Below are positions 31,896-54,415 of a DNA stretch of 64,000 nucleotides, one piece after another. A program made the translations under genes and the position numbers. This stretch comes from Hymenochaete sp. R1 (Eukaryota > Basidiomycota > Agaricomycetes > Hymenochaetales > Hymenochaetaceae), in contig JAFREE010000114.1 in assembly GCA_019400425.1 (NCBI GenBank), positions 1 through 64,000 of the forward strand, read 5' to 3'. The notes under the pieces were generated by a model. That model worked only from the letters and a program-made list of their open reading frames with translations, was not told the origin of the DNA and did not search any database. Within the stretch, counting starts at the first letter, position 1. Each line of letters opens with the position of its first letter.

Positions 31896-34180
31896 TATGC
31901 TGGTGCAAATTTATAGCTTTGGGTAAGAAGGAAGTGTTGTAGCCGCAGTCAAGCGTCTGTCAGATAAACGCTTTTGAGTTCGATGGCAGTTTGAACGAGA
32001 AAACTGGAGGGTAGATGCAAATGAGGAGAGTTCCGGGTCTGGTCTAAAAAAAGTTCCACGACACACCAAGGACAGGTGTTTATATGCATTCCAGAAGATT
32101 TCGTAGTAGGTCCTTACGTCCTGATTCTTCAACATCAGTCGTCTTACCGACGATTCATCCAGGCCGATTCCGAGGCAGTGCGTGCTGCGAGGCGAGAGAT
32201 GCAACGACCCGGTAATTTGCGATCTAAGGCTCCGATTCCCGTGGACAGAGTCGTAGAGATCTTTTTCTGGTGACCTTGCGTAGCAATGGCTGAGAAACCT
32301 GGGAAAGCCAAAGAGCAGGATCCGATGCACTGAATAGATGATTTCAAAGGAACACACAGCCCTTTGAGGGTCGATTGCGTAGCAGTTCCGCACTGTTTTT
32401 CACTTTGATTCCGATGGTGACGGGCGCTGAGGAAAGTGTTCAGAAACACACAGCACCGCAGCGATAGCCGAGCATCTCATTGCGTAATTGACGCTCCGCC
32501 AAATGCCGGCCCGCGGTCCAAGGATGCAAAAAAAAAAATAATGCTCGCCACACAGCATCTCTTTCTTGCTTTCGACACTCCTTGGCTACTATGACGTTGA
32601 TTGCTCTTCGGCTACTAGAAAGTGCTGTCAGTCATAATATAGGTATCATCCTACTGTTCTTGTTAAGCTATGCAACACGTAGCTCCAAGGGCCACGGTAT
32701 TCCGGGTCTGAAGGAGGACAAACACCCTCAGAAAAACTTAGATCCTTCTGATTATCATTTGAGTACGATGGATTATCATTTGAAAGTTTGCAAGAGCTGC
32801 ATTAGTATTACTTTGAAATTCTCGCCGTCGCGCACCTGATAGTAATCTAGACGCTTGTCTTCCTCGTCATCCCCCATTAGCGCCTAATCACGCAGCTCAC
32901 GGAAAATCGCGAAGGCCGACGAGCGAGAGATCAGTTTTAACGAAAGCGATCACTGGCACTTAGGCACCTGAAGTCTTTAGAACCAGATATCGAACTAGAT
33001 GAGTTACTGCAGCACGAGAGCTCAAAGGGTGTATTAGGCGGTTAGAAGGGCTTTACGGTACCTCGGCCTCGCAATTCAAAGTTCGGGATTACCCTTACAT
33101 GAGTAGTGGCACTAGCAGTGAGCAGCTCCGAGTCCAGTATCAATCAACAGAGATGTCTATCTGTCGGGATTTAGTCAGTAGATCTTTTTCGCGGCCTTAC
33201 GGCGTGCGATGGTATCATCCTCCTCATGACCCTTCCCTAGCTCAAGCAGCTGATAATAAGTGAGGACGAAGAAGGGGGAGTCTACTGACTCTACTCATGC
33301 CCGCAGCAGCTAGATTACCGGAAGAATAAATAAAATTATATATCCCAAAAGTATTTCATTCTTTGGTCTATTTCGTCATTTTTTATGCTGCATAATAGGC
33401 GAATAATGTCGCATTAAGAGCATTGCTTCGAGAACAAAAATCGTGAAGACAAGCAACTCAAAGAAGAGGATGGAGGACACGGGAGAGAGAGAGGACGGCG
33501 TAATGCTTGGCCTTGTTTGGATCTGATTATCCTCGGTTACTCCCGGGCCTTTCGGAGCTGCCCGAACGCCCTTTGACCACGACCGACTACTGGGTACTGG
33601 GTTGCGTGGGCGCGCGTCGTTCCCGCCGTCTTTGAGATGAACCACAACTAATCTATCTATCCATTATCCATTACCACCAGCACAATGCTCACGTCGAATA
33701 AGTTCGAATGTATAGGCTCCGAAATAGCTGGAATATGTATCAACATCAAGGGTCTGTTATATCTCCTTTAAAGAACGTGCAAGAGAGAGTCATCAAGTCG
33801 ATAATCTTCGTTATCTGGTCTGGTGCGTAATATCCAATATTAGGTAGCCATCCTACCAACTGATGATGTGTTGTACTTCAGAAGCAATGCCATCACATAC
33901 GCAGGATTGTCGGGTGTAAGGCTTTCTGACGCTGGCCTTTATTACTGGATGTTGTGTGCATCGGTTGCGATATCTGCATCATCGACTTGCGACTACATGG
34001 ATAATCAATGAAACCCCTTATAGTGTCTCTGTCTGCGCGGCCAGCGTAATTGGATCATCATGTGTCTTATCAATTCCCGTTCTTTCGTTTCTCGTTCGGT
34101 CAAGCGCATCTTGAAATCTCACGAAGTGTACGACGGAGCGCTCACTTAGCAACACTTGGTTTGAAGCGGGAGGACGTTAT
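31896..34180. other. 2.3-kb gene-poor stretch up to the element
   Basis: Contains several frames of 60-160 codons without recognisable domains. A TATA-like TTTATATG lies near 32080. The last bases, GTTAT at 34176-34180, are the left target duplication of the large element. No gene appears to be interrupted by it. Confidence 0.4.
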
Positions 34181-34389
34181 CTATTGCGGATGAATAGTAC
34201 ATTTATTAGATTCAAGCGCAAAGAGGGAGTGCAGAGAGCGAGCGAGTGAAATCCAAGCCCAAGAGCGCAAATCCAAGCCCGCGCATGACTAAAACAAATG
34301 ACGAGCGCGCAAATCCAAGCGCGGCTGCACAACTCCAAGCTAAAATAAGTAAGCGCTTGCGCTTACTCAGCCGTTTCAATGCCCAAGGA
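34181..34389 (+). repeat. Left terminal inverted repeat, 209 bp
   Basis: Identical to the reverse complement of 53575-53783. It contains four near-copies of a word built on AAATCCAAGC (about 34249-34258, 34269-34278, 34311-34320, 34331-34340, the last with AACTCCAAGC), two of them after AGCGC. It also has a near-palindrome AAGTAAGCGCTTGCGCTTAC at about 34347-34366. Repeated words near transposon ends are usually transposase-binding sites; that role is inferred. Divergence starts after GCCCAAGGA. Confidence 0.9.
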
Positions 34390-35415
34390 AGGGAGTTTAA
34401 GTTCAAACATGATTATATCTGGGTTACACTGCATCGAATGGCTACGTGAGCGTGCCTGACATAATTATGTAATGTGACTTTGTGTGACACCAGTAAAATA
34501 AATTACTATTTTCTTATATATTATCAGTATTCTTTGACATTACATAAAAAAAATAGCCTTGGAAGGCCGACAGCCGCAGGCCGACGGCTTAGCAACTAGG
34601 CCACTATTAGGGTATGCATGCATACATGCGCGTATCGAACGGGAGAACCCTCAAGTGTTCCTTCTCTTCGCATGGGGGAACCAAGTAGTTCTCCCTCAGA
34701 TGAAAAAGAGGAGGGACCCAGGGAAGGTGATAGGCAGTTTTGGATGTGTCGGTGTCAGGTGCTGCACACCGACCACCCTCATTGAGCGCCGTCTTCATCT
34801 CAAAACCGAAATTCGTGTCATAGGCAATCTTATAATCATGGACTCTCCACATTCAGGTTCTCCCGGAATGACAAGGTGCTCATCAAGCCCCCAATGCACC
34901 ACCCATCCCCGCAAGCTGAATTCTGGAGAGCTCACCGTCTCTTAGACGCTCGAACTTCACGAAGTCGAACGCATGGTCTTCAACCATCTGGAGACCTCCA
35001 GCGATTCTCCTCACAATTCACTGCACCCTATGCGCTGATGTCTACATATTTGACGAGCCATCAAGCTACCTTGACGCCCGACGATGGCTGAATGCGGCCA
35101 AAGCTATCCGCTCGCTGTCACACTCAAGTCGTACATCATGGCTGTCGAGTACTAAGTTCAACGTCCTTGTATGCACCACCCCCCCACCCCCCCTCTCGAA
35201 TGCACTTTTTATCGTTCCTTCAAATCCTTTCGTGTAATTTAGTTTCAATCAAAGGTGGTTAGACCTATAGAAGTTTTCGAAGTTACGTTGGTCAGATGGA
35301 AAGGGCTGGGGCGCTTAAATATCAAGAAGGGGCGCATGATAGCAAAATCCCCGCATTCTCGTCCGCGCGATCGTTTCGCAAAGAGCTGTGGCGCATCTTC
35401 CACTTCGACTCCCAC

Positions 35416-35457
<42 letters not shown>

Positions 35458-35773
35458 GCGGCGACGACGACGACGACGAAGGACCTCTGTCCCCAGATTG
35501 TACATAGTGTCTTTCTATCCAGTTATCCCCTTGGGTTAAATCATAGCATTTGGTGACGAAGGTGAACAATCATGAGGTACGTCAATTCCTGCGTTACATC
35601 CTCATTCAAATTGGGTGTTCGTACACTGAATTATACATGTCCCCAGGAACTCTGAAGAAGCTCGCGTCAGCGGTTTCTCGCGCAATTTCCAGCGTGCAGT
35701 CGTTCACATCTGCACGGAAGCTATGCGCAAAAAGCCTCGAGAAGCAATAGACTTCGTAATAAGCAACTCCCAA
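34390..35773. other. Element interior before first gene, no gene supported
   Basis: Subterminal AT-rich DNA, then a region around 34560-34720 with short tRNA-like words in an order that rules out a Pol III promoter, then the GAC repeat. It should contain the promoter of the Crinkler-like gene. Confidence 0.4.
35416..35480. repeat. GAC/CGA trinucleotide repeat
   Basis: About 65 bases of nearly pure GAC units, broken by two GGC variants. Open frames across it on both strands (poly-Arg, poly-Asp, poly-Ser) are products of the repeat. Confidence 0.9.
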
Positions 35774-38700
35774 ATGACCACGACAGGCCATTCCAACGAC
35801 AAAGCCGGTCTCAAAGCGTTCCGAGAATGCCTTAGAGAACAATGCGAGAATATGGACGTTCAGGCTCTTTTTGAAAAGGGAATCAACGAGGTTCGTTCCT
35901 GAAAGCAGGATACCGTTATTCGTCATACTGATCTTCCTAAATCTTTGACGTACTACATCCAGGCAAATGACGCGGCGGAGGATCCGAGTCACCATTCTGG
36001 GTATGCTGACTCGGCGCAGGGGAGCAGCAAGAGCGGCTTGAATCTCGAGGACTCGCCTCTTGAAAGCACACAGGACGTAGAAATGGTGATCGAATCTGAA
36101 TATAGCGCCATTCCGATTGACACCACATTCGAGGTCGACAAGAAATTCCTGAAACCCTGCTGGACTGTAGTTCGCAATCATTGTCAAGCATTGCTTGACA
36201 AGGACGGTCGAATCATCGATTTGCCCCTCCTCGAATGCTTTCGAGATACAATCTTCAAGGTCTTTAAAGAAGTGCAGAATGTTTGTGGGTATCCGTGCAT
36301 GTGGGAGCACACTATGGGGTACTTGCGGACATTCGATGAGTCCGAATCAAGGAAGCTTGTTATTCAAGCATACAACGCCGGCTCCGTCGAAAAGATACTT
36401 CAAATTGGTGAGGGTGATTTATATCTATGGGATCCATTAACTGACGTTTTCATAGCGGAGTTCCTACCGAAGTACTTCAGCAAGAAAGAGGACATAGTAT
36501 ACAACACGCTAGGCAAGTCTTTTGTTTTATATCTGCGAGTTCTGCTAACAAAGTGATTTGCAGAAAGCAAGTGGAGCATCTCCCATTTATGAGTTGAATG
36601 CATTTATTAACATTGAGATAAGATGTCAAGGATGGATGGAAAGCGGATTATCGCGGTAACTATCATCGAAACGCTGTTCGACGACTTAACCGCTTTCGAA
36701 AAATTACAACGGAGAACAAGAGGACGCAGGAGAAGACAGAGCCCGTTCCAGTCATAACCACCGACACCGACACCGACACCGACGCCGACCGGTTCCCGGA
36801 GGATAAGTCTACCCACATCGCGGACGTCATTCCTCATTACACAAATCACGTCGCTGTGCTTCAGAGCTCGGGCTATGGCAAGTCAAGACTTGTTCACGAG
36901 ATGGGCAAAATCGTATTTTGCATACCCATTAATTTGAGATCGGACGAAGAAACAAAGAGAGGTACGCAAAGTTGTTTTCGCTACAGATTCATTAATTGAT
37001 GCCTCGCAGGGTCTGCGTATCCTCTACCTGATCCTGCGCTCCGTCGACTTTTACTTGGCAGACTAGACATAGGCGGCGGGACACTTATATTCGGCGACGA
37101 GCAATTGAAGGCTCACTACCTTCGTGTTCTACAATGTTTATTCGACGTAGTGAGGAAGGAGTTAATCAAGCTGAAAGAAAATAAAGACGAGTCGGATCTC
37201 CCTAGCAAGAGCGAGAGCGCGTTCGCTGAGAAATGGTCGAGATACTTGGAATCAGCGAGTCCACTCCCGCAATATGCCTCGAAACGAGACGAAATATACA
37301 GTCAAGTGCCAGATCTAGTGAGTGATCATGTTTCTTATATCACGCATGCAAGCAGATTCATTTTGTTTCCTATTCTGCCCTTTCCCCTCGCTCAGTACAA
37401 GGTGTGTAAACGCAATACATGCGAGTTCTTGGAAGTATATTTAACAAAGTCGCCGCTGCAGACACTAGAGGCCATCCCAGAGAAACAGCAGGTAGTGGAA
37501 ACGTACAAAAGCCTGCGGGATCTGCTGTTGGAACTTGGAACGATGGGCGAAATGGAAGACGTGACGTCTTGGCAGATCTTGGTCCCTTTTGACGAAGTCC
37601 ACAGCCTTTTCGAGAAGAATACAGAGAAATCGAAAGAGGGCTCGATCATTGATGTTGGAAAAGGCTCAAACGATGGCACAGCTGATGTCAAACTTCCGTC
37701 GCAGAAGGGGAAGCTCGACTATCTCATAGAAGCCCTTAACGACCTTCGGAACTGCCCAGTCTGTTTCATGCTGCTATCGACGCAGTCTGATATGACACAG
37801 CTGGCTCCCAGTATGGACGCCGCACGCTCGACCCGTTATGCTGGTGCGGGAATTGACTTACATGCACCCATCACCGAGCTACCGTTTGACTGCATCGGAC
37901 CGCTCAATATGTCACGCATGGATTTGGATATGTTGTCGGACCCGGTAGTAATGTCATTGCGAGGGAGGCCATTGTATGTACCGTTGCTTCCTACCCGTTC
38001 TTTGCATGTTCATTGACGCTATGTTGCAGATGGGCTGGTTCCCTGACGCAATATGTGACGATACTGTTGAAGTACTTGAATCGCCTTGACAAGAGCATAA
38101 CCAGAGCTCATGCTCTGGGACTCACTACCGATAAGGACGTAGTTTTGCGACGTAACGAGTGCGTGGCATTGATCCGCCTCGCAAGAAAGAAATTGCTTTT
38201 TGTTGATGATGCCGGTCTGGACAAACCCTGGAAGGAACTCAACAAGATACAGCTTCTGGCCGTGATCGACTGTAGGACGATACTTTCGCAAGACGTCGGT
38301 CGTATCGCTGCAAATCGCTTCGACCAACAACTCGTATCATCTCATATGCGCACCGTGCATTCCGTTGTTCAAGACCGCTCAAGTATGCGCTCGCAGTATG
38401 CTTCGGAGCCTATCCTGGTGGAAGCTGCGGCCACCCAGATGCAAGTATGGCGTGATCAAAGGCTTGATCCCACCGATCCTACTTTCGCCATTGCAGAGAC
38501 TGTGGTCAATGATCTCGTCTCTTACGGCGAAATTGGAGAAGTCGTCGCGCGCCTCCTATTGATTAACGCCCGAGACGCTACAGCCATTTCTGAACACAAT
38601 AAGTCAACAGGCCCCGGAAGTGTAAAGGGTGTCAATTTCAGCAAACACGTCCCGCTTAACGCTTTTTTGAAGGAACTTTTTGCGAACGACGTCGCAGCAA

Positions 38701-39950
38701 CGATTTTAGGCGTACAGCTAAGCAACGAGCGAGGGCACTGTAGCGGGCCTTCCCTTGAAGAAGTGTTCGAGTACTCTGTTATCAATTTCACGCATTTCGC
38801 CAGATGGGGAACTCATTCGAATATGGACGTCACTGCTTCGTTTTCGTGCTTCGTTCGACAAGCGGCGATGATATGCAGAGTGGGATTTTACTACGTTGAC
38901 TTCGCGATACCCGTGCTTATAGACAGCCGTAAACCATTATCGCCCGATAATATGACCGTGGTCTTCATCCAGGTGAAACGCCGCACCGGCTCTCCGGGAA
39001 CTCCCAACTCTACAGCAATCTTTCCGTCGAAGTTCCCATGTGGCAGAGATGTTTCCAGGCCGCCCAAGTACAACAAGTCGAAGAAGACCGATAATGACAA
39101 CGAGGGGACGAAGACCGGAGACATGAAGGAGAACAGTGTAAAGAGGAAGAGGAAACGCACCCAGCCCAGGACCAGCGAAGGGTCGAGGGCTATGCCAAAG
39201 AGAAGCGGGACGTATAACTACTTCACGAAGAGGTGCTCTTTCATCGCACTAACTATGGAACTTGGTGTCACGCTCAATGTCGATGCTACTACCGATGACC
39301 TTGTCTTAGCAAGAGCCCGGAGAGCACCCAAAATCCCTCGAACGAGTCTATCCCCTCGATCTAGTCTCTCCCCTCGATCTACCGCTTCCCCTCAAGCACA
39401 CGATCCGATGGAAGAAGGAAACCTAGCGGATAACGAGAAATACGAGGTCGCTGATGCAGCCATCGATGTGGACGAGCTATTCACAGAGAACGTTCGCGGA
39501 GCAGGACCAGCTTGTGATGAAGATAGTTCTACGAGAGTAGAGCTGTGCACAACGGATGATGAAGCCAGCGATAGTATCTCTTCTACAGATAAAGACGCCA
39601 AAGAGGACCAATCAGGCTCAGATTGCTTTGAATTCGACATACACGTTTACGGGTGTGGGATGCAGACGTATAACGTCATCAGGAACCGGTTCGACGAGGC
39701 CACGCTCGACCGTATCCTTATGCTTGATGAGGTATATTCGAGTCATCCAGACCAAACGCCGGAAGTCCTTCAAACAGTCGCCGAACAGCTTCCCTTTTTT
39801 GAGGCACCGATACTCCACAAGATGCACGAAAACTTAGGCTACACTAAAAAGGTAAAGGAGAACGGAAAGGTGAAGAAAGTCCGATACAGGGTACCGGAGC
39901 TTCCTCGCCTCCAGCTTGCAGACAAAAAACATGTCACCTTCAAGGATTAG
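35774..39950 (+). CDS. Crinkler-like P-loop NTPase with C-terminal nuclease-like domain
   Basis: Seven exons close in frame to 1,276 aa: 35774-35890, 35963-36407, 36456-36512, 36568-36655, 36723-36961, 37010-37973, 38030-39950. An N-terminal helical region of about 235 residues (SGASPIYELNAF) leads to a Walker A loop QSSGYGKSRLV near residue 285, then a Walker B strand LVPFDEVHSLF and a sensor-like FMLLSTQSDMT. In the last exon VDFAIPVLI followed by VVFIQVK resembles a restriction-enzyme-fold D...(D/E/Q)xK site. The tail is acidic and Ser-rich. This NTPase plus nuclease pairing is that of fungal Crinkler-type (CRN/CR) proteins, which have been linked to transposons. Its job here (cargo, host interaction or part of mobility) is open. 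One intron begins GC, not GT. Confidence 0.72.
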
Positions 39951-41446
39951 GAACAGCTGGAGAGAAGTAGGAGGGGGGGAGGAGGGGAGACCACGCCACT
40001 CTTACTTTTTTTTCTTTGTCGTGAAGCCAGGCTACTTTTTCTGTTGAGTGTATTCAAACTCAGTCTCTTTCTTTTCGTTCGCTTTCGTTTTGACGGAATT
40101 TTTCCCTCGGCAGTTCTGTTTCTTTTGGTGCTTCTTCTGCTCGAGAACTGCAATCTCCTAAGTTATGGGCTGCTTATGGAAGTTCGCTTACAAATATTTT
40201 TAATCGTTTAAGTTCTATTTCATTCCCCTTTTCGTTCACGAACATAAATACATCAGTTCGAGATCACGTCCGTCGGCTTTTACACCCAAATATACATGTT
40301 GTCACATTCAGTTCCTACGTGTTTGCAGACGGCGATATGCGCGGGGGCAACTGCAACGTTGATGGGAGGAAGGAAAGCTGAAAATTGCGTGCCAGTTCTT
40401 AAGCTTGCTTGAGTCGGCATAAACCTTGGTGAATCTCCTGCGGACCCAGTTGCCCACATAGACGGGGACGCCACGTCCTCGAAGCGATTAAACATTATAG
40501 ATCTCAAGTAGATAATATGACGATACGTCCGACTCATTGTGAGACTCACCTGTAACTATGTATTAGTGATTGCCTCCACCTCATGCTCATTGAAAATGGT
40601 TCGCCAGAAAGATCTGAATCCATCAATACCGTCGGCTGAGTCTGAAATCACCGTGGTTGCCTTGGTCGGATCCCAAGGTAGCAGAGTACTTTGTAACAGA
40701 GATCTCGAGGCTCCCTGATCCATGTATCATTTGCGCGTCCGAGGTCGATTTTGAAGAGGGTCAACTCCTCAATAAAGTGCTACACCAAAAAATACTATAG
40801 AACAAGATCCTTAAATTGTCATAGGTCTGGATGCGATAGTGGAACTCACTACTCGAATTGGAACATCCTAGGGCCAATCACCTATGAAATCTGCGTGTCA
40901 CATGCGCTTATACGTCGTCTAGAATAATGTTACCAGACAAACCCAAAAAGGACGCTATCATGCAGCACGTCTGCTGCGTCCTCACTCTCGTCAATCTGTG
41001 CATACCCAATACTGTTTCGTCCTCTTTTTGTCGACAGCAACCGCACCGTCACTGTAGCTCTTCTCTAATTTCTTCTTTCTTGCGTCATTTTTTGTGTCTG
41101 TCTTCTTTTCTGTACATACATACATTTCCAAAAAAGTATCAGTCCGGCCAAAAGCAAAAATCAACGGCGGGTTACACTCACCATACATAGCGTCTAGCCC
41201 TCCGCTCATCACACCCCCTCGGCGAATGCCAAACCGTCCACTCCTTGCCGACAAAACGCGTCGAAGTAAGTTAGTATTCAATAAATAAATCCCTTTTACT
41301 ACCTTTCTGATGATTGTTAGTAAACTTGCTCTGCTTGAACAGTACGATTCGGTGGGCTTGTATCGGACAAGGCGCCCTTTGCCAATTTTCTTTCTCCGTG
41401 CGCGTCCTGTCTCTCCAACAACATTTCATCGGCTTCGTCAACACCA
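39951..41446. other. Element interior, mostly non-coding with a minus-strand relic
   Basis: Between the Crinkler-like gene and the 151-aa ORF. Pyrimidine-rich around 40000-40140 and 41010-41110. Apart from the decayed minus-strand pieces listed separately, nothing coding is supported. Confidence 0.4.
40280..40790 (-). pseudogene. Decayed minus-strand gene fragment, family unknown
   Basis: Two blocks look like protein but lie in different frames: LFKIDLGRANDTWIREPRD...CYLG, then, after a one-base shift near 40665, DPTKATTVISDSADGIDGF and SFWRTIFNEHEVEAI. A further open block, 40280-40549, contains FNRFEDVASPSMWATGSAGD. No start codon and no single frame joins them. It is the only gene-like sequence on the minus strand inside the element. 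Confidence 0.3.
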
Positions 41447-41960
41447 ATGAGCGCCAGGTGGTATTATAACTTCGGGAGCAACAATCGGTCGGGCTCCATG
41501 GAGGTATTGCATTCGGAACGCGGCGCATCCGTCGAGTCTTTGGCTCGCGCCGATGACGACCGTGCGTCCGACACCTTTGCGGAGAATCTCGACGTCGGCG
41601 AAGTCCGAGATCCCGTCCCTCCATACGAACTGCGGAACCCTGATCCCGCTCCGGTGTTCGAGGAAGTCGAGCGCAGATGTGGAAACGGCGAGGGGGAGTC
41701 GCGTCCGATCGACGTAAGATTTTTTGCGCATCACTACCTTTGAATGAGACTCATTGGCCTCTGACGCAAAGACTCCGCCCCTCGCGCACGGGCCTCACCC
41801 TGGGGGGTCTGTGACCCAATCTGCGCCGATACGCGTTCACGATGGCGCACCCGCAGAGCGCGACGGCACACACGCTGCCGCACCTGTCCCACAAGCAGCG
41901 CCCGGACGCAGGATCCACCGCATCTTACACAGACTCGCAAATGCTGTCCGACGCATTTGA
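41447..41960 (+). CDS. Small hypothetical protein of the element, 151 aa
   Basis: Two exons, 41447-41713 and 41772-41960, joined in phase. Starts MSARWYYNFGSNNRSGS. The first exon is acidic (ADDDRASDTFAENLDVGE); the second is Ala/Pro/Arg-rich and ends IHRILHRLANAVRRI. No domain recognised. It lies 1.3 kb before the integrase gene and reads the same way. Alternative frames in the second exon are also open, so the C-terminus is less certain. Confidence 0.4.
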
Positions 41961-43264
41961 ATCTGCGACCGAAAAGTGCGCGGCAACTCTTTCCACTACA
42001 CTCGTCGTTCCCTGACCAGAGGTTGTCCGCTAGTAAAGGGCTGTGCGAAACGGACGGATCCAAAATCGATACCCACGTTTCTTAATAATATGTCTTCTAA
42101 ATCTCAAATCAAATTTGTTGTAGTACAGAGAAACACCTTCCGAATGTTGAGTATGTGATGACTGCACTCTTATACCCTATAACATGTTTTCAGTCCCGGT
42201 TCGCACAGAAAAGAGTTCGACGTACAACTCATATCCGTAACGAAAACCATGTGCACCCCATAACGACCTACGCCCGATCTGACTTAAAAAAACGCATATT
42301 AAAGCCCATATCAGTCACCAATGACGCTACTTAAGATAGCCCAAAGTGGATTTTCGAGATTGCCCTGTTTGATTCGTACACGGCTTTGCTGACACTGGGC
42401 GAGGAAAGTGGACGGACGAGGGAAAGCGGACTAGCCAGAGACCGCCGAGGTTCGTCGTCTAGAGTCACGAAACGGTTCTCCAGATCATATTCTCTAGAAA
42501 TTTCCGCGGTGCTTGAGTCGTCCCCTAGACCCGGTCCTTCAACATGGCCCGACGCTGTTTGCACATCTGTCGAGGGGAGAGGGGGGGGGGGACGGCAGTC
42601 TGTCTGTTGGACTGGACTAGAGGTGAGTATTGGGCGAGTGCCACGGAATGGGAACGTATCATTGTCATTGTGACTACGCTGGCGGAAGACAAAAATAGAT
42701 TGGGATGCACGAAACTCGCTGGTGTGATCCGAAAAGGACCGTCGAAAGCGACCGTAAGAGCACCTCCACGGTCTGGGTCGTCGCCTGAGCATCCAGTACC
42801 GAAGTATTCCCATCGTTGAATGGGAGGGCTTTCTATCTGCATCTATCGAGTTTGATGCTGACACGATCCTTTTCCCGAGGGATCGTGCCTCCCCCCCCTC
42901 CCCCCCATGGAGCTTCCGCCCAAGTGTTATCGTGAGCTTCGATGTTCCAAGTGTAGGAATGGCTAAGTGAGTACCTTGGCAGACATCGTGACATGTATGC
43001 ATCGAAGACGTACCACAAGATAGTAGAAAAGTGTCTCAACTGACTGTTCTTACTCTCGGTTTCCTGCCTTCCACCTCTCTACGAAGTGCCTTGTAATGGC
43101 TTGGTACTCTTGCACATTCGATTGAAGACAATGTGCACGGAGTGTGTGGAAGGAGTCTATGACCGGACTGGCATAAGGGTGACACGGCGTTACTACAGTC
43201 GTCGGATAAGCGGGGTCGGACGGTTTGCGCGCGTGCGCCCCATCCGACTACCTTCCCTTCTCCG
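41961..43264. other. Element interior before the integrase, no gene supported
   Basis: Contains G-runs near 42587 and C-runs near 42892 and 42900. The open frame at 42331-43002 on the minus strand has no recognisable domain. The integrase promoter should lie at the end of this stretch. Confidence 0.4.
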
Positions 43265-45012
43265 ATGGATGTCGGTGTGGATTATGCACTGCTCGCTCAT
43301 GTCGAAGCCTACGAGTCCCTTCATGAGGAGGTTGCAGGAGTACTCAGGGACGGAGTGCAGTCGAAAGAGAGACTGCAGACCCTGGGTTTCAAGCTCGACA
43401 GGTTTTTGGCGGAGTCATCCGAGGTACGTTTTTTTTAATGTCTGAAGACGGCGACAACTATCTAACGATCGTTTTAGTACATTCGTCATCTTATCCCGGA
43501 GCACTGGGAAGATCTCAAGCTGAATATCATCCGCATGCAACATGACGTGCGCCAGCAATATCAGGATTTGGTCGACAGAGGTCCCATGCAACGACCGCAG
43601 CTGGTTTTCGACGTGCAGACTGGTGCTCCAGGGCGTCCACCCAAGCACATCGACGAGACATTTCTGGCCACCGTCAGCCAGTTTCTGGGAAAGAAGCGAA
43701 TTGCCGCTTTTCTTGGAGTCGATCCCAGGGTTGTGCGCAACGAGCAGAAGAGACTGGGCATACATTGTTTCGGGGAGAGAGCAGGAAACGTTCAAGAGGA
43801 GGGCTACGTCGATTTCCTCGTCGCGGAGGCCTTAGCAAGGTACCCTGCGTTTGGTTCGCGCATGTTGAAAACCGCTATCCAGATGGATACGACACTGAAC
43901 GTTTCGCGAAAGCGAATCCTTGACTCAATGGAGAGACAAGGATTCGTGAAGCAGACATTCGGAGCCCGCAGTATACCTCGGAGGCCGTACAGTGTCCCCG
44001 GTCCGAACTCGCTATGGCACCACGACGGACAACATGGTACGCCATTTACCCGCTTTACTGGGTAACAGTTCGCTGATACCGTACTTAAGGACTCATTAAA
44101 TGGGGGATCGTTATCCACGGTTTCGTCGATGGATTCTCGCGATACGTTGTAGGCCTTCGAGCCGCCAACAACAACAAAGCCGACACTGTACTCGACCTAT
44201 TTCTGGATTCATGCGCCGAATATGGCGTTCCAGAAAGACTTCGAGGTGACCATGGAACGGAAAACATTAAGTTGGCAGCTTGGATGGACAAATTTCGTTC
44301 GATGGAAGCGTTTGCTTACATCTGGGGCAGGTACGATGCACAGGGTCTATGGCGCCAGGGTAACTTTCTGATCTTTGGCAGATCGGTTCATAACACACGC
44401 ATCGAATTGTTGTGGAAATTCGTGACCCTCCACGTTGGTCATTTTTGGAAGATTGCTTTCAAGGAACTCGAAAAGCGTCACGGCCTCAATGCTAACAATC
44501 TAGCCCATCGCTGGTTAATCCATTTCCTCTTCCTCAACACCATTAATTCAGACTTGTCCCATTGGGCCGCAATTTGGAACAACCATGTCATGGAACTTCA
44601 AGGCCAACAGAATGCAAAGCCCATTGAAATGTATACAATGGAAACGTTTTCTAACGGTGCGCGTGGAGACCCGCTGCCTTCTGATCGCCGTCCCATTCCT
44701 GTGTTGACGCCCGTTCTCGATCTACCTCCCGATGAGGTCCTTATGTTCGGGGTTGACTGGCCGACAGTGCCCGACAATCAACTTCGGGACGCTGAGGAAG
44801 TCCTGACCTCCTGGGTCGGGATACGAGGTCCACCTGAGCGCCTCAACCATGTCCCACTCTTTGGTCCCGCGTCCGACCTCACGGAGGCAGAAGTGGGAGA
44901 TCTCCGCAGACGATGTGCCCAATGGGCAGGGTGTAGAGACATGGCGTCCATCACGAGTGCATGGCGAGAGGCTCTTTTCTCAGCCAGGGCCAGACACCCG
45001 CTTTCATTCTAG
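43265..45012 (+). CDS. DDE integrase/transposase (rve fold) with IS3-like helix-turn-helix
   Basis: Four exons, 43265-43423, 43478-44036, 44090-44330, 44382-45012, giving 529 aa. A helix-turn-helix candidate RIAAFLGVDPRVVRNEQKRL is followed by a second one (RYPAFGSRMLKTAI...SRKRILDSMERQGF) that matches the HTH_21 pattern of IS3 OrfB proteins. The rve core has Asp236 (WHHDGQ), Asp293 (LRGDHGTEN) and Glu328 (TRIELLW), 34 residues between the last two. The active-site Asp2 and Glu blocks are joined only by splicing. The C-terminal 170 residues are helical and of unknown role. It is the likely enzyme that cuts and joins the 209-bp ends. Integrase-core proteins of this type are widespread in mushrooms; a link to IS3EU-type elements is my inference. 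All key residues are intact. Confidence 0.88.
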
Positions 45013-45511
45013 AGACTTCCTTGGAAGTCCTACCGTACGCAGTCACCCCCCCCCCCCCCCACGTCATTCATGTTTTGTGGTATTCGTTAAGCCGTTCCAT
45101 ATCGCGCCCACCCTTTTTTTGCATTCACGCTTACCCATTCCTCCCTCGCAACTCGAGAAGCTCAGGCGATGTCGTAGCAAGCGGCAGATGAAACACCCAC
45201 GTTTTTTTCACGAATATGCAGGAAGCCATGGCATGTATTCATGGTTGCCGTTTCGACCGAAGCGACATGCCGCCCATTCATACAACAGCCATGGACGGGC
45301 TTTGCACGGAGCTGGTTTTGCACGGAGCTGGTAACCGGAACGTCGAGGCACAGACATGAGTTTTCACAATTCGATATGGGTCTGGTATTTATACCGCAGG
45401 GTACCCTCTGCTAACCAGCCCATACCGTTCAATATTTTCTAATTCGTGCGACAGCTGTCGCCTTCTCGCTCTTTTTTTCTATCCCTTTCTTTCTCTTTTC
45501 CCATCGCCACC
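45013..45511. promoter_or_regulatory. Spacer between integrase and 958-aa gene, with TATA-like box
   Basis: A run of C sits at about 45047-45060. TATTTATA near 45386 lies about 125 bases before the next ATG and is followed by pyrimidine-rich DNA, as in the histone leader, so it may be a promoter. A 15-base word TTTGCACGGAGCTGG is repeated twice near 45300-45331. Confidence 0.4.
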
Positions 45512-48500
45512 ATGGCGCAAAACACCAGCAATACCCCGCTCTACAGGCAGTACGCTGCCGCCACTTCTCCGCAATCGGTTCAGAATGCCACGCCCTACTC
45601 ATACGGCCCCCCCGTTGGTGTGCCCCCAAACCCCCTACGCCGTCAAGGAGCGTTTTCGCAGCCTCAACCGGCGCCAACGACTGTCGCCCAAACGCAAACT
45701 CCTGCAGCACCTCAGGAACCTCCTGCCCCAGTGCAAGGGTCACGCACCCAGCCCTTTCGCTTGGTACGAGGGCGTGCACTTACCGCGCAAGAAATGGATC
45801 TGGACACGAGTCCAACCTATGCACGTCGAGGCGAGAGCATCCGACGGACACAAGCACACCCCCAGACACAGCGAACCTCAGCAGCTGCAGCTGGAGAAGG
45901 AATGGACGAGCAAGTGGAGAGCGCGATAGGTCCCGATTCTCTTCTTAACATCAGGCTGTGTACCCTGCCGCCAGAGAACGTAAGATTTAGTCTTTGTTAC
46001 ACGGATGTGCTTTCTCCAGCTGACAGGGTATCCATTTTTTGGGGGGTGGGGGATGGTCGTTCAGGGAGGAAAACACATTGACCCAGTGGGCAATGGCATC
46101 GCCGACGCCATCAGCATATGGTGTAACGCGTTCAACCTTATGGTCGACACGAAGGTCGATCCCAATGAGCCGATCGAAACTCTCTTCAAAATCGCCAAGG
46201 ATCATTTTGAAGGACCTCCATGGTACTTCAAAGTCGTGCCTCATCACGCAGCTGACAGCATCGAAAACCCGTCCGAGGATCTGCTCGTCGACATGGGTGT
46301 CGGAAAAACTCCGAGAAAAGGAGGTTTCGGTAGGAGACTTCTTACCGCCGAATGGGAGCACGCAAAACGGCCCATTAAGGAGGTGATCAAGCAGTGGAAA
46401 ATTCGGAAGGGTGACGTTTTCGTGGACGCCGTCGGAACTACGCGTTTCAGACTTTTTTTGGGTAAGCATCGTTCTTCACTTACAGTTCCTGTCGACAACA
46501 CTCTTTGGCTGCATCCTTACGTTTTTTTAGTCGTGAAGCACAGTCCGTTCTCGTGCATCTACGACGGGAAAGAGCATTCGTGTATAGCCGGGATTTTTTT
46601 TCGACAGTATGACATCGACGGCACAACAGCTCGTCGAGGTGTCAACGTAGGCCAATCAAGGCGCCGAGTCACACCCACTAGAAGCACTGAAGGGACAAGG
46701 GGTTCCGGAATCTCGCCCTTTTGGGACTGCTCGGTAGTGGATTGCAAGCACCTCACTCAGCTTGAGTTAGACGAGCGCAGAAATGCACGCCTTCCCAATT
46801 TCACCAATATCCTAACGCGTACAGAGTCTTTGACTCTCGACAACCCGGCAGATGTGCAATTCATCGGTTTCGACGAAACTGATGACGGGAATGTCCCAAC
46901 CGTCCCCGCCTCTCCGGTCCACAGCCCCGTCGCCAACAATGCAGCAGAGGAGTTGGATGTAGTCGCCGAGCTCCTGTCTCCTTCCGTAAGTGTCTTACTG
47001 CAGTGTTTATTTTTTTTTTGTGCTGACTTTTGCTCCTTGCTTCGTTACAGACTCCCGCCACACTTCGCCCTCTTATTATAGATGATGAAGAACCAGCAGA
47101 CCTGGAGTACAATCTGCGCGCCTCGTTCGACAGGCGGCACTGGCTCTTCAGAGTGAAGGAACGCATGTCTGGGATGTTGATCGGTGACCGCCCCGTTTTC
47201 AAGGTCCTCGATGCCGACAACCTTGCACTGGCCATGCAAGCCGTCACAAAGTTCGTTGATCAGGCTGTTCGTACGCGAAACTGCTGCACCGTGGCTGACC
47301 CCAACAGTCTTTTTACGTAGTGAGTCCCACAATGTTTTGTGTGACTTTATGTTCTCGTTTTAATGAGGGGATTTGTAGTGGAGCCGGAGCTGGAGATGGG
47401 CCCAGAATCGAAATTATCGATGCTCTGCTCCGTGCCGTGTTTGTGAACCCTTCTGAGCAAGTCGATGGGTTTGTCGGATATGCTCCTACGGTACCTGCGC
47501 TTTTACAAGATTCCATTCCGTCTTCGCAGAAGAAGAAAATTGCCAAGCAAGGCATTATTTTCGGCCTGGCTTTGATGTACGGTGTTTGGCCCTGCCGATT
47601 CAACCCTCTCGTCCTCCTTATTCTGTATAAGAAAGGTGACCTTCACGAAGTACCGGAAAGCATGATAAAGGCCATCCACCCACCCCTGCACAAAGCCATT
47701 CGCACTTTGTATCACGCCTTCCCTTACATCAGTTCCGGCACAGAACCCCCAGAGACTGAGAGAGATCGTCTGGTGGAGTTTCGAGAAGCTAAAGCCTTAT
47801 ATGCTGAGGTAGTTGGATCACAAGTAAGTCGATGTTTCGCACCTGCTATTTAAAGGGTGCTGCCGCTGAGTCTGGTTTAGCTCCCGCTTATCGAAGATCT
47901 GGGCTACCTAGAGAGTGTAGTGAGTGCAATGGCAGTCAAATACATTCTCGGAGCGGCCGACATCACTTCGGTGGAGATGGTCGAGTTTATTTGGGGTGTC
48001 TCGTTACCCTGCCACACGGGTCGGTCTTTCCTCGCAGTAAGCCTTTTCTTGTTTTAGCTTCCAGATTCAGCAAAGACTCATTGGCTTCAGGAAGTAGAGG
48101 CTTCGTATCCTGGCGGTCTACCGTGCTTCTTGATGAGGGCTTCAATGCCTGTCCCGGTCTCACAAGCTATTGCCGTCACTTATTGTGAGGGCTGTGCCGA
48201 ATTGCTTTTCCAAAGAGGCCTGCTGGACTTCGGCATTTCACGGGAGGAACTGACTCTCGAGACTATAGTTTCCAACTTTGTGAGTTCCCGTGAGGGACTG
48301 ACCAAGGACGAGATTTTGGATGGTCGCCTCCAGGGTCTCTTTGGAGAGGCTATCGCCGAACTTGGTCCTGTGGATGCAGGGTTCCGTGGTCGGCTTCTAT
48401 GCAAGATGGCTACAAGTGCGCTTGCTGCGACTCTGGATAGGAGCAACATCTTCGTAAGCACATAGATTATTATGGTTCTTTGGAATCTCAATTGATTCTG

Positions 48501-48787
48501 TGTTTCAGATCACCCTGGACTTCTGGACCTCAATCGCAAAAAAGAATGAACTGAGAGTGGGTTCGTCTATCGACGTTTTCATGCATCCCTTCTACACCAA
48601 CTCCTGTCAAACTCGTACTTCAATTCCAATCGACTTTCCCCTGGATCTCTCATTGGGACGGGTTCTCGACTTACGTACAAGTCCGACCGCAGACACGGTG
48701 AAGACTGCAGACACATTCTACATCCACATGGACTACTGGTTTCTTCACGGCTTATTGGCAAACTACGGCTCCTTTAACCTTTTATAA
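45512..48787 (+). CDS. 958-aa protein of the element, function unknown
   Basis: Eight exons close in frame: 45512-45979, 46020-46461, 46531-46985, 47051-47319, 47379-47823, 47881-48036, 48091-48453, 48509-48787. The N-terminal 150 residues are Gln/Pro/Ala-rich and disordered (MAQNTSNTPLYRQYAAAT). The middle has FKVLDADNLALAMQAV, then GAGAGDGPRIEIIDALL and IIFGLALMYGVWPCRF. These faintly recall the N-lobe of HECT ubiquitin ligases (G..aGG..rE, then G...A...g), but no catalytic TC site is found at the C-terminus (SFNLL), so I do not assign it. The first intron is only 40 bases. It follows the integrase on the same strand and may be a second conserved protein of this transposon type. Confidence 0.6.
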
Positions 48788-48842
48788 AGTGGCCAAAGGT
48801 GTTTCCCCTCCTACTTTATTCATTTAATCACAGATTCTAGTA

Positions 48843-50383
48843 TTGATAGCTTATCCGTCTGCTTGTTGCGGAATTACCAATCATTCTAATACATGTCGTT
48901 CATTGTTATTGTTGTTATTATGGACTCTAGATGGCACGAGGATGAGGCAGGTCGTCGGAGTTGCCTTTCGATCGTACGTTCTTCTGTCGGTACAGAACAT
49001 CCACGAAACACTCCGACTCGTTGTAATAGCCGCTCTCGTTTCGCACCGTAATCTCGAGCCATACGGCTTGCCAGAACTTGAACGCGAACAGTTGCAGTCG
49101 CGGTTGTAGACAGGGTTGGGTTCAACATTCGCGATAGTGGTCCCTCACGATCTGACGAAATATACAGACTTTCAGAGCCGGCTCGGTGGTGCCAAAGGCC
49201 TTTCGGTCGCATATCCAGTCGACCTATACGCGGCTCTTTGCACCAAACACAAGCCTGGATGCACCTGTTATGAGCTCAAGCTTGCGTTTCGCGGCTCGAT
49301 GCTAAAGTATGAAGGCGGTCCCCGAGACATCGAAGTAAATAGAATTCCGCATGACCCAACTCCGACGCGAATCAATCATGGATTCATCATCCTGCTCCCA
49401 ACTTTAGACAGGAAATTCAGCAAGTCATGCATTCTGTCTATCGAATGCGAACGGCGTACACGGCCTACTTACTTGAATTAAAGCCTCTTCAGACTTTTCT
49501 GGGACGACACCTTGAGGATATCAAGTCCCTCGCTACTGACCATGGACGCGCTCTCTTCTATTTCGAGTGTATGTTAAGTAACGGAGACCGCGGTCCGTTT
49601 GGGTACTTCAAAGATGGTAAGTCATAGCTTTGCTTCTTTCGGACCATTTTGACACTTTAGAATAGCATATGAGAGGTTGGAAGCGGGGCATGGCAGCGAC
49701 GAACCGTATCTCCAAAGCTTGGTTCGTCGGTACCAAGCTTTGCAATACTCGTCGTTGAAGAAGAAACTTAATATCCCATCGATGTGAGTGCCCCCACTTT
49801 GAGAATGAAGTTTTCGCCTGATTTCAACCTCAGGATTCTTGTTATGTTTTCGGTATTGTCGATGAGATAGGCGCCTTGCGTGACAAAGAAGTGCATATCG
49901 CCCTTCTGTGTAGAAAAGGAATCATGGAGGGCGACGTACTCGTTTCGCGGTAAGCTTCATCAAGCACGAAGTGCTTTAAAAGTTATTAACGCCTGGACAC
50001 TAAGTCTTGGTAAATTTGTCAGAAATATATGCTTCCTGTCATCAGGCGAAACTCGTTCCGGGAAGTCTCAATGTGGTGTTCGCTAACCACATAGCAGATG
50101 TTCGCATTTGGTCGGCTGCTGATAATCCGCACCTGTCCTTCTTAACCAACTGCATCGGTGAGTGTTGTTGTCCGTGAGGCGCAAATACTTGTTAAAGCTT
50201 ACTTGCTGCTAGTGTTCTCTCGCAAATGCGCGATATCGATACCAAAGTGAAGGGAGGCGGCGAGACTCCCATATCTGAAAATATCAACATCATTCTTTGT
50301 TCGTTTTTCGCAACAGGGACCTCGATAGAGATAAATGTTTTGTTTGTTGGGATGATCCGATCATTCCCCCGTGTCAATACGTG
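48843..50383 (+). pseudogene. RNA-dependent RNA polymerase (QDE-1/RDR type) relic
   Basis: Conserved blocks of a eukaryotic silencing RdRP occur in the right order: EPYLQSLVRRYQAL...LKKKLNI, YVFGIVDEIGALRDKEVHI, GDVLVSR, then DVRIWSAADNPHLSFLTNCI. After it comes VFSRK in one frame and KVKGGGE in another. The catalytic motif (normally GGDLDGD) is not present; the sequence after GGG does not encode it. Frames do not join near 49783-49834, at 49950-50070 or near 50225, and a TAG at 49107-49109 cuts the upstream open frame. The upstream block 49116-49616 may be part of the same gene or of another. In fungi such enzymes make double-stranded RNA for quelling. It is clearly non-functional as a polymerase here. 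Confidence 0.6.
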
Positions 50384-51734
50384 AAAGAAGTGCCAATGTT
50401 CGCAGATGACTCATCTATTTCGACCTCGATTTCAGTGATATAGAGGATCAAACCAAAACGGCTTAATTCGATCCCAGACTCAAGCATTGTCAATGCGTGT
50501 ACAGCTTATTTGCGGGAAACTAACTAAAGCGTTCAAGGGGCATGCTCTGCAAACCATGCTTAATATCTCGTTCCACCCATCAACATCCGGAAGAACCAAA
50601 CCATTTCCTACGTCCGTGTAGGTCCATTTCCTTTTTAGAATCCCTAGCGCATACCGCGTTAAGTGGAAAGTATTTAAAAAAGGTGGGGGGAAGGGGGGAG
50701 GGAGGCGGAAGAGATACTGACATGCGACGAATCTCACGATCGGTTTAGGCGCCGGCTCTGCGAAGAGTTTCTCAACTTTCTCGCTACACCTCTTTCTCCA
50801 GAAGTCCCGCTCTCTTCATCGGGGCGTTTATGGCGCTTTGGTACTCGTCGAATGTAGCGAACAAGAGAGAGACCCAGCGCGAAGAGGCTGCGGCCGAGGT
50901 AAAGGGAGAGAGGGATCCGGGCGTCGCACGGGACGAGATTGAATAATGCGACGGCAGCAAGCCCGCCAAGGATGAAATCGTGGTACGTAGATACGTTGTC
51001 TGGTAAGGATGGCATCGTACGCGCCTCCTACGAATGATTGGTTGTGTGACTTGAAGACCGAACATCCAGTACAATGGCACGAAGACTCCGGGTGCGCTCA
51101 GAGCGGTATGTGCCCTGGCCGAGAGATCGTACGCGCCTCCTACGAATGATTGGTTGTGTGACTTGAAGACCGAACATCCAGTACAATGGCACGAAGACTC
51201 CGGGTGCGCTCAGAGCGGTATGTGCCCTGGCCGAGAGATTGTGGGAGCTGATTGTAGAGAGGAGTGAAGGCGTGCTTCGTGCTGATAGGAGTCGTTCACG
51301 AGACCTAGAGGAAGCATCCCTCACTTCCGTCGTGCGCATATGTATTCAATGAAACGGATCTTGTCATGGGCATAATCAAAGATTGTTTCGGCGTATTCCG
51401 ACAAATTGTCAACTTCAGAAATCTCATGTAAAAACTCGTAATCTTACCATGCTAAAGTTCCGGCCAGATTCAAGGGTATACAGATGAAGTTGAACTAAGA
51501 CCCGAATGCGCCCTCAATGCATTCGATAAGAGTGATCGACAGAGTGATGCATGAGATGTCGCTGTTCCGTTCCCGACCTTCACCTCTTTTGTTTTCGCAC
51601 CCATCTTGAGCGCATGTGCTCCAGCATCGCCCAATCTTTTCAAGTTATCAACAGAGCTCTGCGCTCCAGTGCCGCAATCTCTATGCTTGTCCAGTTCATT
51701 GTCGGTCATCAAGCTCATCTTCTTCTCTCGTCGT
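50384..51734. other. Element interior between RdRP and HSP90 relics
   Basis: Contains the 112-bp tandem duplication. A minus-strand open frame at 50734-51015 reads like a small membrane protein (FILGGLAAVALFNLV) and may be a fragment of another captured gene. The duplication repeats part of the DNA just upstream of it. No intact gene. Confidence 0.35.
51015..51238. repeat. Tandem duplication, 2 x 112 bp
   Basis: 51015-51126 is repeated at 51127-51238 with no difference that I could see, starting TCGTACGCGCC. The perfect match means that it is recent or newly copied. It lies inside the large element. Confidence 0.92.
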
Positions 51735-53276
51735 CCTCGATTACATCACCTTTCCCATCGGCCGCGGTGCCGAAGTGTATTTGTTCAAGAAGGAGGACCA
51801 GCTTGAGTACCTTGACGTGAATCGAATCAAGGACATCGCCAAGAAGCACTCCGAGTTCATCTCATGCCCGATCCAGCTCACCGTGGCGAAGGCGGTTGAG
51901 AAAGTTAGTACCTCGTTTGACTCTATTCTAACAGACTTCTGACTATTTCGACATTGATACGAAGTTGAGGACGACGAAGAGGAATATCAAGAAGATAAGG
52001 ACGAGTCAAAGATCGAGGAAGCCGAGAAGAAGGAGGAAGAGAAGAAGATCAAGGAGAAGATGATTGAGAATGAGGAACTCAACAAGACGAAACCCATCTG
52101 GACCTGCAACCCGAACGACATCATTGCGGAGGAGTACAGTGCCTTCTACAAAACCCTCTCGAATGACTGGGAAGATCATCTTGCCGTCAAACACTTGTCC
52201 ATCGAGGGTCAGCTTGAGCTCAAGGCCATCCTCTACGTCCCGAAGCGGTAAGTTCTCTCCTTTTTGTTGAGAACTGCGGTTGTTCATTTCAATTTAGCGC
52301 TCCCTTCGATCTCTTCGAATCCAAGAAGAAGCGGAACAACATCAAGCCTTATGTCCGCTGCGTCTTCATCATGGACGCCTGTGAGGACCTCATCCCCGAG
52401 TATCTTAACTTCATCAAGGGTATCGTCGACTCCGAAGACTTGCCTCTCAATCTTTCGCGCGAGACCCTCTAGCAGAACAAGATCCTCAAGGTCATTCGCA
52501 AGAACATTGTCAAGAAATGCATGGACGTCTTCTCTGAGATCGCAGAGGATAAGGACAACTTCAACAAGTTCTACGAGGCGTTCGGGAAGAACATCAAGCT
52601 CGGTATCCACGAGGACGCCCAGAACCGCAGCAAGCTCGCTGAATTCTTGCGCTTCTACTCGACCAAGGCCCTCGACGAGCAGACCTCCTTGAAGGGTGAG
52701 TACCGTATTGATCTTTTCAATTCGCTTGCTGACAATGACTTTCAGACTACATCACGCGCATGCCGGAGGTCCAGAAGTCGATCTACTACCTCACCGGCGA
52801 ATCCCTCACCGCCGTCAAAGACTCGCCGTTCCTTGAGGCCCTCAAGAAGAAAAGTTTCGAGGTCCTTCTCGCCGACCCCATCGACGAATACGCCGTCACC
52901 CAGCTCAAGGAGTTCGACGGCAAGAAGCTCATCTGCGTCTCGAAAGAGGGTCTCGAGCTCGAGGAGACCGACGAGGAGAAGAAGGTGGGCGAGGAGGCCT
53001 CGCCGTTCGAGGAGCTCAGCAAGGTCGTGAAGGTCGTTCCCCCAACGCACATGATTGACTCTCCCTGCGTGCTTGTCCCAAGCCAGTTTGGGTGGTCCGC
53101 AAACATGGACTGCATCACGAAAGCGCAAGGCGCTGCGCGACACGTTGACGTCGTCGTACATGACATCAACGAAGACCCTTGAGCCGAACCCGATGAACTC
53201 GATGAACTCGATGAAGAAGGTGCCGAACAAGGTGGAGAAGAAAATAAATAGTTATGTACATAACTTTGATTTATAA
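51735..53276 (+). pseudogene. HSP90 fragment, captured and broken
   Basis: Matches cytosolic HSP90 from the end of the N-terminal domain (GRGAEVYLFKKEDQLEYL) through the charged linker, the middle domain ([33 protein letters not shown]) and into the C-terminal domain ([14 protein letters not shown]). The ATPase domain and the MEEVD tail are missing. Lesions: the reading frame does not join across the first intron (acceptor near 51963); CAG has become TAG at 52470-52472 within ETL-QNKILK; part of the C-terminal domain is deleted before HMIDSPC; a one-base shift after KAQ near 53128 moves the remaining [11 protein letters not shown] to another frame. Introns are retained, so it was taken as DNA, not through a processed mRNA. 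Confidence 0.9.
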
Positions 53277-53574
53277 TTTATCATTGTATCATCCAAGCAA
53301 GTGCAAGCTTATCTGAGAGGCCGTATTGTTTTGTTTGACCGGCTCGGGACCGGTCCAAATTGAGCTCGTCTCTTCTATGCAGTTGTGTAGGTGCAACTGC
53401 CATATATGGAAGTAAAAGACCGTGACTCACGCTCGCTAATAAAAAAAAGAGATGTCTGCACTAGCAGCAGTCTCCTGCCTTATATGGCAACTCTTCCACC
53501 ATAAGCTAATCAACATTAGTCAATGTTTTGGTTTTGGCTTTGAGCTAGACTTAACAAAAGCCGAAAACTACCCC
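53277..53574. other. Element interior before the right inverted repeat
   Basis: Short AT-rich stretch after the HSP90 relic. No gene. Confidence 0.4.
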
Positions 53575-53783
53575 TCCTTGGGCATTGAAACGGCTGAGTA
53601 AGCGCAAGCGCTTACTTATTTTAGCTTGGAGTTGTGCAGCCGCGCTTGGATTTGCGCGCTCGTCATTTGTTTTAGTCATGCGCGGGCTTGGATTTGCGCT
53701 CTTGGGCTTGGATTTCACTCGCTCGCTCTCTGCACTCCCTCTTTGCGCTTGAATCTAATAAATGTACTATTCATCCGCAATAG
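53575..53783 (-). repeat. Right terminal inverted repeat, 209 bp
   Basis: Reverse complement of 34181-34389, identical as read, with the same internal words in mirror order. It ends CCGCAATAG and is followed at once by TTAT (53784-53787), matching the TTAT before the left repeat. Confidence 0.9.
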
Positions 53784-54415
53784 TTATCAGGGCTATTAAA
53801 GCAATCAAGGGGGACACGGGCGGACTCGACCTGTCAGGACCCTCTTTTCGACGTGAGTTCTCATGTCTTAATTCGATGCCGCTCATATTCTGATGCTGAT
53901 GTCCCACGCAGTGATGTCCCGTGGGGTCTGTATTCAATTGTCGTGATGATGCTAGTCGGCAGTCAGATGCTGGCAGTTTTTGGAAACCGCCTCAATAGCG
54001 TTCGACTGCATGCCCTAACTGGCGTGCAATGCGTGTTTTCAACGAGGCTGCTGCGTCATACAGGCAAACCAGCGTACTTAAGAGCCCATAAGAACCTCTC
54101 TTCTCTCAGTTCCCTCTTAATGTTCACTCATCCGGGGTATCATCAAAGTCGCTCGCACCCTCCACAAGTGCACAGTCTGGTAAGTATTACATTCCATTAT
54201 TGTTTTGTTGTCGTTATGTTTAAGAATACATCCTAACGTTAATTTGTTACAGAATAAGTCAAAACGGCCTGAATGTGAAGAAAGCGATAACTGCGGGTAT
54301 GGTCTAGGAAGGCATTAAGCGCGGACGATGGCGCGAGAAGTTGAGTACACAATCATTATCATCGAGAAGGTCGAAACGAACGGAGGGAAAGGAAAAGGGT
54401 CCTGTGATGGCAAGA
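53784..54415. other. Host DNA right of the element, no gene supported
   Basis: Begins with the right target duplication. The open frame at 53853-54236 has no recognisable feature. Confidence 0.4.

Follow-up and report, generated by a model that had tools for sequence, protein, structure and literature searches.

A 64,000-nt stretch from Hymenochaete sp. R1 (contig JAFREE010000114.1, positions 1 to 64,000; hereafter, the window) carries at positions 34182-53782 a 19,601-bp element with the ends TATTGC...GCAATA, which is best read as a transposon of the IS3EU type, unusually large and with cargo that varies. We consider it very probable that a complete DNA transposon of the IS3EU/GingerRoot type, probably an autonomous one, has recently inserted here into a GTTATC site. 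The assignment combines the profiles of its integrase with the TA..TA ends and a 6-bp target duplication. All gene models described below are our own predictions from the sequence.

The ends are visible in an inverted-repeat search as two arms of 216 nt (34178-34393 and 53571-53786) that are 99% complementary. Counted from TATTGC, the terminal inverted repeats (TIRs) are perfect over 208 bp, far beyond chance, and the same six bases, GTTATC, stand on either side of the element, a target-site duplication observed at this one insertion:

34176-34181, no strand: left target-site duplication GTTATC (flank sequence, joined-flank search)
34182-34389, plus strand: left TIR, 208 bp, beginning TATTGC (repeat search, genome search)
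53575-53782, minus strand: right TIR, 208 bp, identical to the left (repeat search, genome search)
53783-53788, no strand: right target-site duplication GTTATC (flank sequence, joined-flank search)

An earlier note on this DNA had described identical inverted repeats of 209 bases, with TTAT or GTTAT directly outside as a duplication of 4-5 bp. The perfect identity stands, but the true length is 208, each end lying one base further in, and the duplication is instead the 6-bp GTTATC. The base preceding TATTGC is C in the window and G, not C, in a second copy on contig C114, and therefore lies outside the element; the apparent length of 209 arises because the last C of the left duplication and the first G of the right one are complementary by chance. 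Further support for the 6-bp duplication came from fusing the two flanks and searching the 336 contigs (27.8 Mb) of the genome to which the window belongs, its own contig being C18. The matches covered positions 1-103 and 98-204 of the query, an overlap of exactly 6 bases; nothing else in the genome matched, leaving no related empty site elsewhere. The left TIR also holds five copies of the motif T(T/C)CAAGC, which may constitute a candidate integrase-binding array.

Perfect 208-bp inverted repeats can also be the product of misassembly, and an assembly artefact or a segmental inverted duplication might resemble a transposon. We regard this as highly improbable in view of the duplication of 6 bp placed precisely at the ends, the flanks that are found nowhere else in the genome, and an independent copy with the same terminal sequence and gene order. 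That second large copy (C114:23532-36720) is collinear with the window element, with 94.1% identity across 13,015 aligned bases. Its left end is also TATTGC, at a different genomic site, and it starts inside an apparent Copia-type reverse transcriptase (read by eye); the contig stops at 36961, and the right end of the copy lies off it. The proposal that the segment moved as a unit is upheld by this copy, with its same order, same terminal TATTGC and different site. Across the genome, the TIR occurs three times (three candidates, all three scored), twice in the window and once at C114:23532 with 92% identity, and every one of the three is attached to an element. No solitary TIR, the observation that the earlier note had named as speaking against a single mobile unit, is listed in the search of the 27.8-Mb genome.

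Two neighboring genes encode the integrase and a probable second factor of the element:

43265-45012, plus strand: integrase/transposase, exons 43265-43423, 43478-44036, 44090-44330 and 44382-45012 (model, profiles)
45512-48787, plus strand: partner protein of 966 aa, seven modelled exons (model, selection test, weak homologue)

The four-exon integrase model is open over 529 aa and includes the DDE residues D236, D293 and E328, the latter two separated by 34 residues. In Pfam, it matches rva_4 (PF24764) with an expectation value (E) of 2.1e-57, rve with 6.1e-9 and, weakly, HTH_21 with 0.0065, confirming the intact DDE integrase claimed previously. The NCBIfam models for IS481 and IS3 also matched, with E 7.6e-10 and 1.1e-7, respectively, neither reaching its curated cut-off, and PHROGs returned weak transposase matches only.

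The element thus resembles IS3EU/GingerRoot in three respects: its DDE transposase is of the rve type and related to IS3/IS481, its termini are TA..TA, and its target duplication measures 6 bp. Passages of PMC10045372 describe IS3EU elements as having TA..TA termini and usually 6-bp duplications, and group them with GingerRoot. The TET-bearing IS3EU elements of rusts, as portrayed in sections of PMC12730594, have 6-bp duplications, TIRs of >30 bp and the ends TAYGG..CCRTA; the TATTGC end in the window fits TA..TA, not this rust motif. Both sources (PMC10045372, PMC12730594) also describe fungal IS3EU members that carry additional genes, among them TET/JBP dioxygenases in rusts and Tuber. What differs here is the size of 19.6 kb, the 208-bp TIRs, a Crinkler-like cargo gene and fragments of host RNA-dependent RNA polymerase (RdRP) and HSP90 genes. 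Likewise, sections of PMC12730594 assign an alpha-kinase gene to all TET-bearing IS3EU families, whereas the present element has the 966-aa partner without a Pfam match; Crinkler has no mention in the main text of that paper. Literature searches on fungal IS3EU cargo, and on Crinkler together with transposon and integrase in basidiomycetes, found no such element in the titles and abstract openings listed. The earlier view that no described fungal element joins these parts needs restricting: integrase and ends agree with a eukaryotic superfamily already on record, within which an element of this size and cargo is unusual.

Polinton/Maverick elements are large, with long TIRs, and carry genes for DNA polymerase B, a packaging ATPase, a protease and capsid proteins. 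Size, TIR length, the 6-bp duplication and an rve integrase would all fit an element of this kind, and the Polinton target duplication is given as 6 bp in passages of PMC10045372. Yet our Pfam scans, which covered 29 of the 193 listed open reading frames (ORFs) of the element, revealed no DNA polymerase, capsid, protease or packaging-ATPase family over cut-off. The sole DUF87/HerA match, to the P-loop of the Crinkler-like gene, is sub-threshold (E 0.15), the integrase is far closer to rva_4 than to rve by the values given above, and the ends are TA..TA. We therefore give a Polinton/Maverick-like origin next to no credence.

Starships resemble the element in being large, cargo-bearing and fungal, and excerpts of PMC13066641 report them also from the basidiomycete Tremella. 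They differ in having a tyrosine recombinase captain, as opposed to the DDE integrase, long TIRs and 6-bp duplication seen here. A Starship identity was rejected, as no tyrosine recombinase matched in the 29 of 193 ORFs scanned and the gene for mobility encodes a DDE integrase instead.

For the spliced 966-aa partner, Pfam returned nothing with E up to 10, and its single-exon ORFs gave chance-level matches only. A HECT-like stretch suspected by eye (47379-47823) was dropped, Pfam and PDB matches being at chance level. Structure prediction of one partner ORF yielded a mean predicted local distance difference test score (pLDDT) of 33.9. The integrase has matches on four contigs of the genome (C18, C114, C137 and C120). 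The partner is also present in the C114 copy, and next to the C137 integrase lies a weak but significant match to one of its exons (E 4.7e-7, 22% identity); no match was found at C120.

For selection, we compared the two large copies with each other against 2000 neutral simulations, which kept the mutation classes and took the window as the starting state. Counting non-CpG changes, the integrase has 27 nonsynonymous ones among 55, against 39.8 expected, a value as low as in none of the 2000 simulations. Similarly, the partner has 46 of 86 against 61.1 expected, with one simulation as low (fraction 0.0005). Both genes show purifying selection in this comparison of copies. CpG transitions alone gave no clear departure from neutrality in the three genes compared, including the Crinkler-like gene (fractions 0.13, 0.46 and 0.60). 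Given the selection acting on the partner, and the homologue of one of its exons next to a more distant integrase, we take it to be probably a second factor that belongs to the element.

The C114 copy carries seven stop codons in the integrase, four in the Crinkler-like part and one in the partner. As for transitions, C or G in the window faces T or A in C114 at 537 sites, and the opposite holds at 109. T is read in C114 at 381 of the 1688 CpG cytosines of the window (22.6%), compared with 20 of 976 (2%) in the reverse direction, and the CpG observed/expected ratio is 1.08 for the window element, 0.70 for the C114 element and 0.30 for the C114 left flank. We infer that the C114 copy is methylated and decaying and the window copy is not; given the TpG excess in C114 at window CpG sites, the window copy looks young or spared. 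The recent movement proposed before is thereby borne out as recent or well preserved, with identical TIRs and little CpG loss.

Several observations weigh against a complete IS3EU/GingerRoot-type transposon. The assembly holds only one complete copy and, the right end of the C114 copy being off its contig, no second TIR pair or duplication is visible. With E up to 1 allowed, the partner part at 47299-47853 had matches in C18 and C114 alone, and viral contigs gave no match to the element. Around the C120 and C137 integrases, we found neither a TA-ended pair with a matching 6-bp duplication nor a window-type end; C137 does contain a TATTGC pair (2187/17283), but one that lacks a matching duplication.

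A partial internal copy, of about 83-85% identity, lies at C277:149305-155626. It bears on a part of the element upstream of the integrase:

40322-42921, no strand: segment without recognised gene (comparison with C114 and C277)

The C277 fragment includes 40322-42368, whereas C114 is without 40779-42921; because C277 retains the former, C114 probably lost the latter. At 40322, 157 bp found in both C114 and C277 are missing from the window copy. Two inserts of an interspersed repeat of ∼310 bp sit within the partial copy (C277:149393-149715 and 152737-153056), and the same repeat is also found at C114:5866-6169 and 20989-21292.

Further to the left lies a Crinkler-like cargo gene:

35630-39950, plus strand: Crinkler-like gene, pieces at ∼35630-36556, 36622-36961, 37010-37973 and 38030-39950 (model, by eye)

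Its boundaries upstream of 37010 were set by eye, and the 5′ end is uncertain; the modelled portion 37012-39947 has no stop in the window. Inspection by eye revealed a Walker-A-like QSSGYGKSR and D...QVK stretches, and it is from these motifs and the known features of the family, without profile support, that we take the gene to be Crinkler-like. Pfam names no family for it in the ORFs scanned, and no Crinkler header domain, ubiquitin-like or other, matched in the scanned 5′ ORFs, the 5′ end of the gene being uncertain. Matches to PADLOC were weak (E 0.00036 to 0.021), and structure prediction of the ORF gave a poor model (mean pLDDT 35.7). The gene resembles Crinkler/CR proteins in a layout of NTPase plus restriction-enzyme-like nuclease, apparent by eye, and the review PMC5289972 has a section that links prokaryotic pairs of NTPase and restriction enzyme with transposable elements. 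It would differ from Crinkler/CR proteins in the header domain, not found in the 5′ ORFs scanned, and differs in that it sits in a eukaryotic DDE transposon and in that there is no evidence here for secretion or an effector role. Thus, of the Crinkler NTPase/nuclease reported in the earlier note, the motifs are present by eye, but Pfam support is lacking and no selection is detectable between the copies: 25 of 40 non-CpG changes are nonsynonymous against 27.5 expected (fraction 0.24, with low power), in a test that used 37012-39947 only and omitted 6 gapped codons from the count.

With a probability only a little short of even, the working core consists of integrase and partner only; the Crinkler-like gene, like the right-hand segment, would then travel along by accident and never have helped the element. 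The 40 informative changes without detectable selection are in line with this, as are relatives of the gene on six contigs besides C114 (C160, C277, C51, C31, C48 and C65), for none of which an integrase match is listed, and a right part that is made of broken host-gene pieces and differs between the window and C114. In contrast, the gene is at the same place in both large copies, reads through without a stop in the modelled 3′ part of the window copy, and has its region also in C277. Presence in both copies and in C277 suggests that the Crinkler-like gene has been in the element for some time. Its role within the IS3EU-type transposon may be that of an addiction-type toxin or of a helper nuclease, or it may simply be carried along as a passenger.

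The right part of the element contains the following features:

49151-50457, plus strand: broken fragment of an RdRP gene (87.7% to C326)
50708-51319, no strand: segment with tblastx similarity to C120:23178-22679 (70% at the nucleotide level over 240 bp)
51735-53235, plus strand: broken fragment of an HSP90 gene, intron-like stretches retained (88% to C168:167848-169385)

The RdRP and HSP90 pieces seen in the earlier reading are indeed present, in broken form. PF05183 matches the RdRP piece (E 1.2e-7 for 49110-49481), and PF00183 confirms the HSP90 pieces, which have a stop within the middle block. The best-matching genes are on C326 for RdRP and C168 for HSP90, making these candidate donors. 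By eye, the alignment reveals intron-like stretches common to the HSP90 piece and C168, and their retention points to capture as DNA. In C114, the RdRP piece has roughly the same left boundary and includes an extra C326-matching stretch not kept in the window, so the RdRP capture predates the split of the copies. Both pieces would represent captured, non-functional DNA. Pack-type DNA transposons capture host-gene fragments between their TIRs, and the broken fragments with intron-like stretches between the TIRs are reminiscent of these, with the difference that the present element encodes its own integrase.

RdRP and HSP90 are genes linked to RNA silencing. The HSP90 piece has 365 of 1481 21-mers in common with C168, and the RdRP piece 112 of 1287 with C326 and none with C199; with this sharing, a role as small-RNA decoy is possible. 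RdRP pieces recur at L042 (C326), L043 (C199) and C120:24851-25900, besides the window and C114. The C326 RdRP is 94% identical to C120 (1055 bp) and C199 (1441 bp), and the RdRP gene is therefore partly duplicated. The right part also includes a perfect 112-bp tandem duplication at 51014-51237. Genes of the DUF6699 family (PF20415), all on the minus strand, flank the element at 30861-31910 on the left and at 54416-55612 and 60206-61540 on the right.

The integrases on C120 and C137 adjoin divergently oriented genes with Tet_JBP (PF12851) matches, E 4.2e-7 and 1.7e-4, respectively, both below the curated cut-off. These TET/JBP-like dioxygenase genes (L020:2046-2480 on C120; L016:3621-4085 on C137) lie beside rva_4 integrases, in line with the published TET-bearing IS3EU elements. 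Among the two of four candidates listed in a genome-wide Tet_JBP scan, C265 is over the cut-off and C120 below; C137 is not among the matches listed. Because the ends at C120 and C137 were not found, it is adjacency only that suggests TET cargo there. A joint reading, in which the IS3EU core of integrase and partner in this fungus would carry a swappable module against host control, TET/JBP-like beside the C120 and C137 integrases and Crinkler-like in the window, while the RdRP and HSP90 pieces would give rise to small RNAs against the host silencing machinery, seems to us unlikely.

As to mechanism, we propose that the integrase would bind the T(T/C)CAAGC motifs in the TIRs, pair both ends and join them to target DNA at staggered cuts 6 bp apart. 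The 966-aa protein would act as the second factor, and the Crinkler-like NTPase/nuclease as a passenger or accessory. Movement might be by cut-and-paste or by copy-out.

Taken together, these data suggest that IS3EU-type elements can reach ∼20 kb with a Crinkler-like gene and pieces of host genes, in which case large cargo-bearing fungal elements need not be tyrosine-recombinase Starships. Crinkler-type proteins have been proposed to be linked with transposons, and the element would supply a concrete example of this; its pair of copies, one CpG-decayed and one CpG-intact, would offer a way to study the silencing of large elements.

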